Of a DNA stretch of 34,846 nt, positions 4,775 through 30,597 are shown in pieces. The stretch is from an uncultured Bacteroidia bacterium (GTDB lineage: Bacteria; Bacteroidota; Bacteroidia; Bacteroidales; Prolixibacteraceae). Position 1 is the first letter of the stretch. Every line of letters begins with the position of its first letter. The notes under the pieces are model-generated. The model did not search any database and was not told the DNA's origin. It worked only from the letters and a program-made list of their open reading frames with translations. Both the position numbers and the translations under genes were made by a program. The stretch lies in NCBI GenBank assembly GCA_903834845.1, contig CAILKW010000349.1:1-34846 (forward strand), read 5' to 3'.

Positions 4775-6038
4775 GTAATATTATTTTATGTCCGATAGTG
4801 CAATCGAGGCATTTCCGAGGCTCACAATAGTTGTGCTGCAACTGTAGCAATGCCTGCGATTCAAGTGCATTTGAAGCTACAACTCCTGCTCCTGCCCATC
4901 GGCTAATCAGACTGTTATTCTCCGGTGGCATCTGCTCAAGAATCTCGAGTGCTCTGTCTTTCAAAAATAGTTTATTTTGGCTTTCACCAAACAAAAAATA
5001 AAAGGGAACCACAACATTTATAACAATTAGACTGAAAATCTGCTCTCCGAACACCTTTTTCCTATTAACCGATGGTTTATTAAAGCTGTAGTGATTGTCC
5101 CAATAAGCTGAAGCAGAAACAGAAAACAGCGTCTTTAAATCCTCAAGGTTATTGGATTCAATTACTGCGGTAAATAGGCCTCTCGAAACATGAATCAGTG
5201 CCGCAAACTGTGCCAGCCTTAGTGTCGGAAAATTTCCTGGGTGCATTCTCATAAATTTCCATACATGGCCTTCTACAGGTTTCAACCCATATTTACCCGC
5301 AAGAAAACGATACTCTTTTCGAAGATCAATATAGTAATCATCACCAAATAATTCATCACCCAACAGCCCTGCTTGTCCGAAAAGTAGTGCCTCAATCTGA
5401 AACAATGAATCATGATGTTTTGCAAGTACCGACTGTGGCAAAGAACGAGCTACCATTTCGAAAGGGAGAGAGTTCTCACGAAGTCCAAAGCTTCGGGCGA
5501 GCATACGATAAAAAGTCTCGCTCCAATCATCTTTTGTTTCGAAAAGAACCTTACTTATAGTTTCTATTTTTTGCTTTAAACGCTCAATCATTACCCCGTT
5601 AAGGAAAAATTTGACTCGAAAAGGATCAACCTGATAAAGCAATGAAGCACAGCCAATCCATTCATGGCTTTTGATAAGCAATTCATAATTATCTTCAATC
5701 CATTTGGGCCAATTGATTACAAAAACAGGTACACTTGAGCCAATATCATTAATAACCGGAATATCAGCCATGGCAACCACATGTAAAATTGTATTCCTGT
5801 AGGCAGGATCGCTCTGATGGCCATGTTTGTTCCAATCAGAAGCCTTTAGGTGAATCTCGATATTTCCTGCCCATAATGTCCCTGCAATTTTTATTCTCGC
5901 ATCAAAAAAATCGGGTCCTGCATTAGTATTATGCCGTCCCGGATGTACAATTTGCAGTGATTCTCCTTCTTCAGTATAAAGGGAATCATCCTTGTACAAC
6001 TTGTTATTCCATATAAAATGAATAAATTCCTCTTTCAT
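4761..6038 (-). CDS. DUF2851 family protein
   Basis: 425 aa; recognisable N-terminus (HFIWNNKLY...LQIVHPGRHNTNAGPDFFDARIKI...WAGNIEIHLKASDW) and C-terminal CxxCxxxxKC-like motif; overlaps the channel gene by 14 bp. Confidence 0.85.
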   Translation of the reverse strand: MKEEFIHFIWNNKLYKDDSLYTEEGESLQIVHPGRHNTNAGPDFFDARIKIAGTLWAGNIEIHLKASDWNKHGHQSDPAYRNTILHVVAMADIPVINDIGSSVPVFVINWPKWIEDNYELLIKSHEWIGCASLLYQVDPFRVKFFLNGVMIERLKQKIETISKVLFETKDDWSETFYRMLARSFGLRENSLPFEMVARSLPQSVLAKHHDSLFQIEALLFGQAGLLGDELFGDDYYIDLRKEYRFLAGKYGLKPVEGHVWKFMRMHPGNFPTLRLAQFAALIHVSRGLFTAVIESNNLEDLKTLFSVSASAYWDNHYSFNKPSVNRKKVFGEQIFSLIVINVVVPFYFLFGESQNKLFLKDRALEILEQMPPENNSLISRWAGAGVVASNALESQALLQLQHNYCEPRKCLDCTIGHKIILHEPI

Positions 6039-20004: not shown

Positions 20005-21726
20005 ATGAAAGAGTTAGACCTTGGTAATTCAGATTTTAAAAGCATAATTGAGAACAACAGCTATTATGTTGATAAATCATTGTTAATCAAAGAGGTCATT
20101 AAAGCTCAAAAACAAGTAATACTATTGCCTCGTCCAAGACGTTTTGGAAAAACATTGAATTTGTCAATGCTTCACTACTATTTTGACATTAACCAATCAG
20201 CAAAACAAAACCTATTTACAGAACTGAATATTTGGAAAACTGAAAACGACATAAAAGAAAAATATGCCAAATACCCGGTAATTTTTTTAAGTTTCAAAGA
20301 TGCAAAAGAAAATACATGGGAACTTTGCTTAGAATTAATTATTTCTGAAATTTGCGAAGTATATACTCAACATATTTATTTGCTTTCGAGTCCTTTATTA
20401 GCTGATAATGAACGAAATGAATTTCAAAGAATAATTAATAAAAACGCAAGCATCTCTGAATATCAGGGAAGTTTAAAAAAGTTAAGCAAATACCTAAACA
20501 GTTATCATAGCCTGAAGGTAGTAATATTGGTTGATGAATACGATACTCCTATACAGGCCGGATATAAGAACTACTATGAAAATGCTATCTCGTTTATGAG
20601 GAATTTATTAAGTGGTGCTTTTAAAGATAATAAATTCTTATACAAAGGTATTATTACCGGAATTTTAAGAGTATCAAGGGAAAGCATTTTTACAGGCTTA
20701 AATAATGTGAGTACATATACAGTTTTAGACAATCAATTTTCGGATAAATTCGGTTTTACAGAAGATGAAGTCAGAAAAATATTACATGATTTTCAAGTAC
20801 CGACAGATTATGAGCAGGTAAAACTTTGGTACGACGGGTATAAATTTGGAAAAACCAACGATATTTATAATCCCTGGTCTATATTAAATTATGTACAAGA
20901 TGCAGAAAGTGGATTTCAAACTTTTTGGGTGAACACAGGTTCTGATGACTTATTGAGAGAACAGTTAAGTAACAAAGGAGATAATTATACCCGAGAGCAA
21001 CTTTTAAAACTCATTAATAATGAAACAATTGAAAAGACAATAGATCAAAATTTCATTTTTACTGATTTAGATATTAACAAAGAACTAATCTGGACACTAT
21101 TAACTTTTAGTGGCTATTTAACCGCGATTAATAAAACAGGACGTAAAAGTTATGAATTAGCGATACCAAATTACGAAATTAAAACAGTTTATCAAGATAT
21201 TATACTAAACTGGCTAAATACAGAAATCAAGATAAAGCAATCATTACTAATTGATACTACTACATATTTAACTAATAATCTGATTGATAAATTTGAAATC
21301 GGGTTTAAACAAATAATGGGTGACACATTCAGCTATTTTGATAACAAAGGCGAACCGGAAAACATATTTCAAGCTTATGTACTCGGTTTGCTTGCAATAA
21401 TTGGTGACGATTACATAATTAAATCAAATAGGGAAAGCGGCGAAGGGCGGTATGATATAATGTTGATACCTCACGACAAAACAAAATATGGTATTGTGAT
21501 CGAAATTAAGCAAATAACAAGAGAAAAAGGGGAAAAGGATGAAATCTTCAATAAACGCATTAACAGTAAAATAAAAGAAGCACAGGCACAAATTGATAAT
21601 AATAAGTATTTCAAAGAATTAGATGCCAATAAAGTGGTAAATATTATAAAATTACCAATTGTATTTGCCGGCAAAGAACCATTTATTACTTTGATAGAAT
21701 CCCAAAATATTAGGAAAGTCAATTGA
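20005..21726 (+). CDS. AAA-ATPase-like / PD-(D/E)XK nuclease domain protein (PF09820 + DUF1703 type)
   Basis: LPRPRRFGKTLNLSMLHYYF (P-loop-like), VVILVDEYDTPI (Walker B), C-terminal GRYDIMLIP...IVIEIKQ (PD-(D/E)XK). Confidence 0.92.
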   Translation: MKELDLGNSDFKSIIENNSYYVDKSLLIKEVIKAQKQVILLPRPRRFGKTLNLSMLHYYFDINQSAKQNLFTELNIWKTENDIKEKYAKYPVIFLSFKDAKENTWELCLELIISEICEVYTQHIYLLSSPLLADNERNEFQRIINKNASISEYQGSLKKLSKYLNSYHSLKVVILVDEYDTPIQAGYKNYYENAISFMRNLLSGAFKDNKFLYKGIITGILRVSRESIFTGLNNVSTYTVLDNQFSDKFGFTEDEVRKILHDFQVPTDYEQVKLWYDGYKFGKTNDIYNPWSILNYVQDAESGFQTFWVNTGSDDLLREQLSNKGDNYTREQLLKLINNETIEKTIDQNFIFTDLDINKELIWTLLTFSGYLTAINKTGRKSYELAIPNYEIKTVYQDIILNWLNTEIKIKQSLLIDTTTYLTNNLIDKFEIGFKQIMGDTFSYFDNKGEPENIFQAYVLGLLAIIGDDYIIKSNRESGEGRYDIMLIPHDKTKYGIVIEIKQITREKGEKDEIFNKRINSKIKEAQAQIDNNKYFKELDANKVVNIIKLPIVFAGKEPFITLIESQNIRKVN

Positions 21727-21890: not shown

Positions 21891-23003
21891 ATGAATAAGG
21901 AAATCTTTTCAAATATTAGCAAAATCATTGAAAGAGAAAGTAAGACTACTACTTATAAGTTTGCTCTATTGCGTGGGGTTATTGATATTATTCAGGATAA
22001 TTCACCATACATATTATTTTCAAATGACAGAGTTAATTTTCCAATTGGATTGTTGGTTGAAAAATGGATATTGTATTACTATCCAATCTTTGAATCCTCG
22101 GAATACATTCCTCAAATCAACGGTAAGACAAATCTTGCTTTTGTATTTCATTTAAAAAAAATCATTTCAGAATATAGTAGCAAGGGTGGTTTCTCTGTTT
22201 TTTACAACAATTTGAAGAACAAAGGAATTCCGGATAATCTTCATGCAGATTTTGTTTCTTTGGCCAAAAAAATTAATGATACAATCATCCGAATGCCAAT
22301 GAAATATATTGGGAGTTCGATTAGCAACGACTACTATTCAATTTTTCACTATGAATCCGGAACAAAAAGTAACATTTCAAACTGTACTGATGCTGAATTT
22401 TTGATAAATAGTTTTGGAACCTTTTCAATTCCGATTGACTACTACGAAGCATTTCAAGTATTGGGAAGTTTTATTAGTGGACAAGATTCAATACTTTTTA
22501 AGTGGGCTGAATTTTCCGTTAGTGCATCTGGTAAAAATCTTTCCATTGAAAAGGTTATAAGTGAAGTTTTAAAAAGTCCAATAACTGAAAGAGATGTTAA
22601 GGAATCAAAACAGATATTTAAAGACTTATTAAAGAACGAAGGGAAAGTTTATTGTGTTTGGACCGGCAAACTCATTACAAGCTATGATGTTGACCACTTA
22701 ATACCATTTTCAGTTTGGAAAAATAATGATCTTTGGAATCTACTACCATCTGAAGCAAAAACGAATAACCTGAAATTAGATAAGATACCTTCCATTGAGT
22801 TGATTGAGAAAAGAAAGGGTTTAATCTTTCACTATTGGGAATTACTAAATGAGAAACAAACACAGAGATTTCAAAAGGAAATTCAAATTACCCTTTTGGG
22901 TAACAATCCATTTTCAACATGGAAGGAAACCGCATTTGAACATCTGCTAATCAGATGCAATTATTTAATCTCTAATCGAGGATATACAGAATGGAAAATT
23001 TAA
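21891..23003 (+). CDS. HNH endonuclease domain protein
   Basis: C-terminal VYCVWTGKLITSYDVDHLIPFSVWKNNDLWNLLPSEAKTNNLKLDKIP (HNH signature); N-terminal helical domain YKFALLRGVIDI...PIGLLVEKWILYYYPIFE. Confidence 0.85.
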   Translation: MNKEIFSNISKIIERESKTTTYKFALLRGVIDIIQDNSPYILFSNDRVNFPIGLLVEKWILYYYPIFESSEYIPQINGKTNLAFVFHLKKIISEYSSKGGFSVFYNNLKNKGIPDNLHADFVSLAKKINDTIIRMPMKYIGSSISNDYYSIFHYESGTKSNISNCTDAEFLINSFGTFSIPIDYYEAFQVLGSFISGQDSILFKWAEFSVSASGKNLSIEKVISEVLKSPITERDVKESKQIFKDLLKNEGKVYCVWTGKLITSYDVDHLIPFSVWKNNDLWNLLPSEAKTNNLKLDKIPSIELIEKRKGLIFHYWELLNEKQTQRFQKEIQITLLGNNPFSTWKETAFEHLLIRCNYLISNRGYTEWKI

Positions 23004-23863
23004 ATTCTAATATATTTAGCCATCTTACAGCTAAGGAAAGAGAAACTATTTCATTCCCGGCAAGGTTATTACTAGATAAAAAATTATTGATAGGAGAGGT
23101 TCTTGATTTCGGCTGTGGTTTTGGAAAGGATGTTGAGTTACTAAAAGAAAAAGGAATAAATATTGTTGGATACGACAAGTATTACTTCCCTGAATATCCA
23201 ACTAAAAAATATGATACTATAATCTGCTTTTATGTTTTGAATGTATTATTACCGGAAGAACAAGCGAATCTATTGATGGAGGTTTCCCGTTTACTTAAAA
23301 CAAGCGGCAAGGCATTCTTTGCAGTTAGAAGAGATTTGCAAAAGGAAGGATTCAGGATGCACAAAGTACATCAAAAGCCGACTTTCCAATGCAATGTAAA
23401 GCTCGGCTATAAAACGATTTTCAAAAATGAAAACTGTGAAATATACGAATACAGACATTATAACCAAATTATAAACATTAAAGGTAATTCAACTTGTCCA
23501 TTCTGCAATCCTGATCCTGAGAAAGAATTGATAGTTGAGTCAGCAACAGCTTATTCCATCTATGATAGTTTTCCGGTTAGCGATGGACATTCTTTAATTA
23601 TTCCGAAAAAGCACTGCGAAGATTACTTTGATTTATCATTTAAGGAGCAATCCGCTTGCTGGTTCATGTTGAACACTGTTAAACAAATATTGATTAAAAA
23701 ATTTAATCCAGACGGATTCAATATTGGCATAAATGTAAATGAAGCTGCGGGTCAGACTGTTCCTCACGTTCATATTCATATAATTCCACGTTATTCAGGC
23801 GATGTGAAAGATCCTCAAGGTGGGGTAAGAGGAGTTATTCCTGAGAAGAAAAGTTATAAATAG
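22991..23863 (+). CDS. Class I SAM-dependent methyltransferase – HIT family hydrolase fusion
   Basis: N-terminal EVLDFGCGFGKDVELLKEKGINIVGYDKYYFP (SAM motif I); C-terminal CPFCNPD...GHSLIIPKKH...NVNEAAGQTVPHVHIHIIPRYSGD...GGVRGVIPEK (HIT HxHxH). Overlaps the HNH gene by 13 bp. Confidence 0.92.
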   Translation: MENLNSNIFSHLTAKERETISFPARLLLDKKLLIGEVLDFGCGFGKDVELLKEKGINIVGYDKYYFPEYPTKKYDTIICFYVLNVLLPEEQANLLMEVSRLLKTSGKAFFAVRRDLQKEGFRMHKVHQKPTFQCNVKLGYKTIFKNENCEIYEYRHYNQIINIKGNSTCPFCNPDPEKELIVESATAYSIYDSFPVSDGHSLIIPKKHCEDYFDLSFKEQSACWFMLNTVKQILIKKFNPDGFNIGINVNEAAGQTVPHVHIHIIPRYSGDVKDPQGGVRGVIPEKKSYK

Positions 23864-24260: not shown

Positions 24261-24464
24261 ATGAATGTAGCTGAAAAAAGAGATTTTATCAATAATCACT
24301 TACATCAAGAAGACGAAAGCCTAATTAATCAGTTTTATGAAACTCTTCGCAAAGAAGAAATTTTAAAAACGAAGCTAATAAGTAGAGCAGAAAAATCAGA
24401 AAATGATATCCTTACCGGTAAAGTTTTCACTAGAACTGAAATAGAGCTGAAAACTAAAGATTAG
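24261..24464 (+). CDS. Small antitoxin-like protein, no partner toxin seen
   Basis: 67 aa MNVAEKRDFINNHLHQEDESLINQFYETLRKEEILKTKLISRAEKSENDILTGKVFTRTEIELKTK resembles Bacteroidetes RelE/ParE-associated antitoxins; TAGCTTTG -7-like box at 24230-24237. Confidence 0.55.
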   Translation: MNVAEKRDFINNHLHQEDESLINQFYETLRKEEILKTKLISRAEKSENDILTGKVFTRTEIELKTKD

Positions 24465-24864: not shown

Positions 24865-25569
24865 TTAGCAACAAGATAATGGATCACAATTCCAAACCGG
24901 TGGCAGATTAGAAATTTCGGGTAAGTAAATCCCATCCTGCTTATCGGGCCTAACAAATTTCACCAGAAAATCAACTTTCCCTTTGTTTTCAACTCGCCAA
25001 ACCGCACCCTCAACTTTATCAATTGCACCATGCCCCGATTTTTCAATGTGTTTCAAAACCCAATTAACTCCAATCGGCTGACCAATATGTATCAGGTGCG
25101 GTATCGTAAATCCAAACGGCAAAATGCGCAACATGAAGTTATGATAATTAAGTCGTTGATGTTTTTGCATTATATCGAAAGGGACAAAGGGTTCGTGAGA
25201 CAAATTATACCGCGTACTATGAGCCTGTAAAAGCCATTCACCTACAACACGTTCACCTTCAAAAAGCAATTTATCAAAGCGAGACTTTTCTTTTTCTACC
25301 CATTTTGAAAAATAGTGATGTTGTTCAAAAGGAGATGTATCTGCAACATATCCCGAACGGGTTAGAGCTATAATTTGTCCGTTGATTTTGGCAATTGAGC
25401 AATTTGACCCATCGAGCTTTTCCTGCACAATGACCAGATCGAATTTATCGCGCGGCTTCTCTGTGGCGATTTTTTCCTGCCCTATTTCGCAATGATGATC
25501 ACCTTCGCCTATACGCGATTTCGATAAATGTGGGATAGTTCCATAAGCTTTTTGTCCTAAAGGCTTCAT
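24865..25569 (-). CDS. RNA ligase family protein (Rnl2-like nucleotidyltransferase)
   Basis: VQEKLDGSN (motif I, KxDG), RVVGEWLLQAHSTRYNL, KVEGAVWRVE (motif IV), LVKFVRPDK (motif V). Confidence 0.85.
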   Translation of the reverse strand: MKPLGQKAYGTIPHLSKSRIGEGDHHCEIGQEKIATEKPRDKFDLVIVQEKLDGSNCSIAKINGQIIALTRSGYVADTSPFEQHHYFSKWVEKEKSRFDKLLFEGERVVGEWLLQAHSTRYNLSHEPFVPFDIMQKHQRLNYHNFMLRILPFGFTIPHLIHIGQPIGVNWVLKHIEKSGHGAIDKVEGAVWRVENKGKVDFLVKFVRPDKQDGIYLPEISNLPPVWNCDPLSCC

Positions 25570-30003: not shown

Positions 30004-30597
30004 ATGGGACAAATTCAATTTAACCTGGATCAGCAATACTCCTTTGCCGATTACCTCACTTGGGGAGATGACAAAAGGTATGAACTGTTTAATGGAAAGG
30101 TTATGGAACTTTTGCCGTCCCCAACCTCGAAACACCAGAGCGTTTCAGGCAATATTTATGGCTTTTATTGGAATTTCCTAAAGGACAAAAAGCCATGCAA
30201 GGTTCTTTATGCACCAATTGATGTGCGGTTGCCTGTAAAACCTGATGCCATTACCGATGATCAGATATTTACGGTCGTCCAGCCAGATATTATTGTTGTA
30301 TGTGATTCTGAAAAGTTAGATGAAAAAGGTTGCCTCGGGGCACCTGATCTTGTTGTGGAAGTTTTGTCGCCATCAACTGCAAAGAAAGACGTGAAAGACA
30401 AGTATTTGCTTTATGAACTGGCAGGTGTCAGGGAATATTGGATTGTACACCCCTTAGACGAACTGCTCACAGTGTTCAAACAAAGCAGCGAGGGCAAACT
30501 TGCTTTTGATAAAATCTATACTTATGACGATGAGGTAAAAGTTGGGATTTTTGATGGGCTTGTAATCAACTTAAAGGATATATTCGACAGAAAATAA
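30004..30597 (+). CDS. Uma2 family (DUF820) endonuclease-fold protein
   Basis: YELFNGKVMELLPSPTSKHQ, QPDIIVVCD, GAPDLVVEVLSPSTAKKDVKDKYLLYELAGVREYWIVHP. Confidence 0.92.
   Translation: MGQIQFNLDQQYSFADYLTWGDDKRYELFNGKVMELLPSPTSKHQSVSGNIYGFYWNFLKDKKPCKVLYAPIDVRLPVKPDAITDDQIFTVVQPDIIVVCDSEKLDEKGCLGAPDLVVEVLSPSTAKKDVKDKYLLYELAGVREYWIVHPLDELLTVFKQSSEGKLAFDKIYTYDDEVKVGIFDGLVINLKDIFDRK

Follow-up and report, generated by a model that had tools for sequence, protein, structure and literature searches.

In Type II restriction-modification systems the methyltransferase and the nuclease share one specificity and co-evolve. HNH nucleases are also associated with the DNA phosphorothioation systems Ssp (SspABCD-SspE) and Dnd (DndABCDE). 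Surveys of Dnd systems (PMC10853773) and of BREX/PT systems (PMC12839542) list other HNH effectors. ThsC, a HIT protein of Thoeris variants, has been proposed as a possible signal off-switch (PMC8565338, the PADLOC paper). Keyword searches of these papers gave no match for a pairing of HIT with HNH or of a methyltransferase with HIT. A literature search of partial coverage found no published description of the HNH and methyltransferase-HIT (MTase-HIT) pair analysed here, and an earlier description is possible.

The pair lies in a window of 34,846 nucleotides, the whole stretch of DNA that was analysed, which is one contig from an 8.2-Mb draft assembly of an uncultured Bacteroidia bacterium. 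The preliminary description had reported two same-strand reading frames with a 13-bp overlap, an HNH motif in the first, and an intact SAM motif I together with a full HIT domain in the second. The coordinates were reproduced exactly and the motifs proved genuine by the profile matches and conservation given below. The features, all on the plus strand, are as follows.

21891..23003, + strand: HNH protein, type A (370 aa), with a conserved N-terminal TYKF helix, a divergent middle region and a C-terminal HNH_4 nuclease domain
22653..22790, + strand: HNH core, aa 255-300 (C255, H269, P272, W282, N283, N292, K295), closest by sequence to the HNH domains of Cas9
22991..23003, + strand: 13-bp overlap of the HNH and MTase-HIT genes
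22991..23863, + strand: MTase-HIT fusion protein (290 aa)
23018..23455, + strand: methyltransferase domain of class I (SAM), spanning roughly aa 10-155; its kin are the N-terminal part of TIGR04096 and the single-domain methyltransferases of viral contigs
23102..23131, + strand: SAM motif I, aa 38-47 (LDFGCGFGKD)
23486..23860, + strand: HIT domain, aa 166-290, with a Fhit/Ap4A-phosphorylase-like fold, of the subfamily ending PRGGVRGVIP
23765..23779, + strand: histidine triad H259-V-H261-I-H263

The C-terminal domain of the fusion belongs to the HIT superfamily, carrying the HxHxH triad in a HIT fold, and the first protein belongs to HNH_4, with its catalytic residues kept and a score above the cut-off (aa 263-300, E 2.7e-7, 30.9 bits, cut-off 22). 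The fusion matches Pfam HIT (E 4.9e-22) and Methyltransf_23 (E 4.4e-11), its methyltransferase part being about 165 aa long. Loss of catalytic residues, named beforehand as a reason to abandon the reading, is not what the family displays: active-site residues of HNH, methyltransferase and HIT are all kept. Invariant in 78 fusions are D39, G41, G43, G45 and D47 of motif I and D62, R113, R122, H124 and Q133 in the methyltransferase part, and H200, Q255, H259, H263, P266, R267, D271, G278 and R280 in the HIT part, with H261 nearly so. In 76 HNH partners Y22, K23, C255, H269, P272, W282, N283 and K295 are invariant. AlphaFold2 gave confident models of both proteins (pLDDT 90.2 for MTase-HIT, 85.9 for HNH), and in a Foldseek comparison the HIT domain fits onto Fhit (1.0 A over 92 columns) and its Ap4A-enzyme relatives.

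Each known relative resembles the pair in part. The HNH core is nearest by sequence to the HNH domains of Cas9, yet the protein has only 370 aa, lacks any Cas9 match outside the HNH region and reaches 21.4 bits against 100 for TIGR01865; membership in Cas9 was rejected since only the HNH region matches. It differs from other HNH_4 nucleases in its helical N-terminal part (about 230 aa), which has no clear PDB match and gave no PDB or viral-library structure match at E <= 0.001. SBD, SRA and GmrSD-type domains were not detected in it. ThsC too is a nucleotide hydrolase of the HIT family found in a defence context, but the likeness to MTase-HIT is limited to the HIT domain (E 2.5e-9), and the partner of MTase-HIT is an HNH nuclease. 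Beyond this match, the five proteins scanned gave no Thoeris hit (the partners would be ThsA and ThsB), and membership in Thoeris was dismissed since the similarity stops at a single domain.

Relatives of MTase-HIT were collected from a set with one genome for each species, which gave 494 stretches; among the best 80 of these, which were analysed, the closest relatives are mainly Bacteroidota and Ignavibacteriota. An HNH gene lies directly upstream on the same strand in 79 of 82 full-length fusion loci and overlaps the fusion gene in 69. The distance is at most 60 nt in 78 loci and 69 nt in one more (L057), the commonest spacings being -13 (29 loci), -4 and -8. The 82 include a few loci from near-identical or the same genomes, such as L007 and L071, so that the count of paired loci is slightly inflated. 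The only unpaired fusions among them (L070, L076 and L083, all from Nostocales) have no detectable HNH gene nearby. Among 299 evenly drawn Bacteroidota genomes, 15 (about 5%) hold a full-length fusion, two with an in-frame stop, and an HNH homologue adjoins it in 14; the fifteenth (L247) has a 305-aa HNH_2 protein 3 nt upstream instead. Low dN/dS, about 0.04-0.16 for MTase-HIT and 0.04-0.19 for HNH, shows strong purifying selection on both genes, whose products are thus kept as functional proteins. HNH and MTase-HIT form a conserved unit, and chance adjacency is excluded; no fixed third gene was found, none recurring in more than five loci. Two further grounds on which the preliminary description would have given way, homologues that fail to co-occur and a housekeeping role, are thereby answered: the pairing is kept, and so patchy a spread is unlike that of a housekeeping gene.

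The nuclease, by comparison with its partner, is far from constant. HNH partners separate into no fewer than three deep types, with 31 proteins of type A, 45 of type B and 2 of type C. Between types the profiles align over the HNH core (A with B at E 3e-14, C less well), whereas N-terminally the alignment is confined to a stretch of about 30 residues at the TYKF motif, with low probability, the middle being too divergent. The types interleave on the MTase-HIT tree, which was built quickly and has many weak forks, such that 19 changes are needed; individual pairs of loci are clearer. Between L023 (type A) and L025 (type B) the upstream flank is about 95% and MTase-HIT 97% identical in DNA, whereas the HNH proteins share 21% identity. 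Homology breaks off at position 4893, 8 bp short of the HNH start, and returns at 6019, 6 bp past the HNH stop. Likewise, in L049 (type B) and L051 (type A), from two Algoriphagus genomes in which ATP-synthase genes adjoin the pair, flank and MTase-HIT are each 95% identical in DNA and the HNH proteins 20% identical. From these alignments, the HNH reading frame alone is exchanged in both cases. Similar contrasts are seen in L067/L068, L055/L061, L063/L094 and L045/L037/L039; L039 and L045 share MTase-HIT and then the same Wadjet-type gene array. As several of the swap cases come from isolates, binning artefacts can hardly account for every one. In L247 it is an unrelated HNH_2 nuclease that stands beside the fusion.

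HIT is also found with HNH in other architectures. Without a methyltransferase it pairs with an HNH of the same superfamily on Polaromonas and Aromatoleum plasmids (HIT first) and on a Hymenobacter plasmid (HNH first), as well as in sampled Bacteroidota genomes (L226, L227, L228, L231). On viral contigs and in one genome, an McrA-type HNH is fused to the same HIT subfamily in proteins of about 350 aa, with the following single proteins joining an N-terminal region, McrA-type HNH and HIT.

L135:5368-6435
L147:5350-6405
L229:1972-2967

A lone HIT gene adjoins two HNH_2 genes in L230. Because HIT-only pairs, McrA-type fusions and HNH_2 neighbours all occur, the link between HIT and HNH recurs in several independent architectures. 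Another methyltransferase is fused to a TYK-type HNH in L233:3660-5327 and L234:2309-4075, and in L233 an MTase-HIT gene then follows. Relatives of the methyltransferase are encoded alone on viral contigs, with motif I, R113, D115 and Q133 conserved; such single-domain enzymes were seen at L113:5989-6441 and on about 30 other viral contigs (mostly L155-L188), many longer than 100 kb. The idea that phages carry the fusion as a unit was dropped, as the 80 viral-contig loci retained from the scan included only MTase-alone, HIT-alone or HNH-HIT proteins, and the viral-contig scan gave no relatives of type A HNH.

Defence genes are clearly enriched near the pairs, as the preliminary description had anticipated. 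Strong PADLOC matches among 147 pair-flanking genes include, among the matches listed, SspD (4), SspB (3), JetA (3), PbeA (3) and HamA (2), whereas a control of 116 genes from 16 stretches of related genomes had, among the 25 families listed, only PDC-S05, PDC-S23 and DpdF, with two genes each; given so small a control and counts drawn from listed families, the enrichment is left unquantified. Overall, the neighbours include genes for phosphorothioation (Ssp, Dnd) and type IV restriction, together with Wadjet and Hachiman genes. At most loci a recognised defence neighbour is absent, and the window's own defence neighbours are weak. The accessory location claimed for the pair held in part: nine same-genus genomes gave stretches containing mfd, several of them short, and except for mfd none of the window genes tested was present there; upstream of mfd, synteny with same-genus relatives is lacking. 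An RNA ligase family protein (24865-25569, minus strand; Pfam RNA_ligase E 9e-20) is encoded 1 kb from the pair on the opposite strand, and its gene was not found in 17 other same-genus genomes searched. KptA RNA 2'-phosphotransferase genes lie near three loci.

Some single loci stand out. The pair comes after SspB-SspC in L093; SspB lies 5 nt upstream of it in L030; SspB and an SspC fragment precede it in L037; and the pair of L077 has a cysteine-desulfurase-like gene immediately before it and an SspB-type (DUF4007) gene downstream. Next to L024, L063, L088 and L027 stand genes resembling SspD (E 1e-88 to 1e-94). HNH homologues with neither MTase-HIT nor HIT adjoin DndC/DndD in L222, SspA/SspB/SspC in L224, and NUDIX and type IV restriction genes in L225; the latter two kinds of gene are also near the Hymenobacter locus L106. 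The genome of L222, with its longer HNH beside Dnd genes, also holds an HNH copy with in-frame stops (L223:2550-3242), and an intact orphan HNH adjoins a transposase in L221. Thus HNH homologues occur inside Ssp and Dnd loci and SspB, SspC or SspD flank several pairs, but the pair itself encodes no phosphorothioation enzyme, and no SspB, SspC, SspD, DndC or DndD was found among the window genes scanned with PADLOC and Pfam. NCBIfam's closest model to the methyltransferase, TIGR04096 ('DNA phosphorothioation-associated putative methyltransferase'), matches aa 10-86 (E 4.2e-15, 55.5 bits against a cut-off of 150), a SAM-binding core homologous over about 77 residues. The likeness proposed in the preliminary description is therefore real but partial: the 478-position model is only partly matched, below cut-off, the core is here fused to HIT, and a phosphorothioation operon is usually absent near the fusion. 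At the level of family and neighbourhood matches the phosphorothioation link is real, though the window has no such genes.

What these comparisons show is pairing, swapping, conserved active sites, recurrence of HIT and defence neighbourhoods. Judging from them, the widespread mobile pair is probably a defence module, so far undescribed, that acts against viruses or other foreign DNA. In specific terms, we lean somewhat towards a mobile two-gene candidate module that joins an exchangeable HNH effector to a constant, nucleotide-processing MTase-HIT partner. The HNH protein would be the effector and would presumably cut DNA, and its divergent middle region, framed by the TYKF helix and the HNH domain, would probably sense infection or the target. 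MTase-HIT, as the constant partner, may protect the cell or gate the effector by a nucleotide chemistry that does not depend on target sequence and would be common to all effectors. HIT would be the indispensable part and the methyltransferase an added step. On the simplest view HIT would remove a nucleotidyl group, be it an adenylate carried by DNA or protein or a small signal such as ApnN; such removal would restrain the nuclease or reverse a mark, which would leave nucleases exchangeable beside MTase-HIT. The broader proposal, that a constant HIT partner, with or without a methyltransferase, controls interchangeable and even non-homologous HNH effectors by a new chemistry, for instance nucleotidyl removal from nuclease, DNA or signal, and so represents a new class of modular immunity, is a speculative one that we rate as rather doubtful.

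Are other readings compatible with these observations? The main alternative is a restriction coupled to phosphorothioation-related modification, in which MTase-HIT would write or edit a mark on the DNA backbone or a base and HNH would read the mark or its absence, like PT-sensing nucleases. We take it as a tentative contender: the TIGR04096 match, the SspD-like genes adjoining four loci, SspB or SspC beside L093, L037 and L030, the HNH homologues that lie in a Dnd locus (L222) and an Ssp locus (L224) with no MTase-HIT, and modification-dependent type IV nucleases as neighbours all agree with it, whereas most loci have no phosphorothioation genes and the methyltransferase lacks a domain for target recognition. 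Since HNH also pairs with HIT alone, a methyl mark cannot be the principle common to all. That same observation bears on classical restriction-modification, where HNH would be the nuclease and the methyltransferase its cognate sequence-specific modifier. The two genes do adjoin, but HIT-only versions have no methyltransferase at all, an enzyme of 165 aa without a recognition domain is an unlikely specificity partner, and the nuclease is swapped without the methyltransferase. The shared specificity of Type II systems thus fails, with HNH exchanged beside MTase-HIT of about 95-97% DNA identity in a family with 19 type changes. A near-constant methyltransferase beside nucleases about 20% identical, and in one fusion beside an HNH_2, argues against a cognate pair; we consider this reading highly improbable and rejected it on the nuclease swaps. 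Accordingly, of the restriction-like system first suggested for the locus, the cognate modifier has been given up, while the defence reading is retained on the conserved operon, intact active sites and association with defence genes.

A toxin-immunity pair kept by addiction, with a toxic HNH neutralised by MTase-HIT through binding or covalent modification, would account for a mobile two-gene operon with overlapping genes and an exchanged nuclease beside a constant partner. A binding antitoxin, however, is expected to co-evolve with its toxin, and here HNHs about 20% identical and one unrelated HNH_2 share a conserved partner; the orphan HNH of L221 is intact, and the Nostocales fusions stand alone, although an immunity gene could do so. 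This makes addiction an unlikely explanation. Improbable, in our estimate, is an operon for nucleic-acid repair or nucleotide salvage without a defence role, its HIT being an aprataxin-like deadenylase or an Ap4A hydrolase. The HIT fold resembles Fhit and Ap4A phosphorylases, and KptA genes near three loci and the window's RNA ligase gene, at a distance of 1 kb, fit such a role, but the distribution is patchy, nucleases are swapped, defence genes are among the neighbours, and the ligase lies on the other strand and is absent from the 17 same-genus genomes searched.

Returning to the candidate module of exchangeable nuclease and constant partner, confirmation would establish a compact, widely distributed immunity module in which the nuclease is replaced in nature, like a cartridge, next to a single constant partner. 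It would allow one to ask how one partner tames unrelated nucleases, what HIT hydrolases do in bacterial defence, and what the phosphorothioation-linked methyltransferase family modifies. Were the modular-immunity proposal true, viral-contig members of this HIT subfamily could be counter-defence proteins. Exchanges between closely related genomes already supply ready-made experiments.

Other genes of the window deserve mention. Directly upstream of the pair, 20005-21726 on the plus strand encodes an AAA-ATPase-like/PDDEXK_9 protein for which PADLOC gave no match, and downstream of mfd, 30004-30597 on the plus strand encodes a putative restriction endonuclease of the Uma2 family. A 67-aa reading frame at 24261-24464, plus strand, matches the Pfam plant RST domain (E 4e-4, 20.6 bits against a cut-off of 22.7), which is probably a remote or chance similarity.
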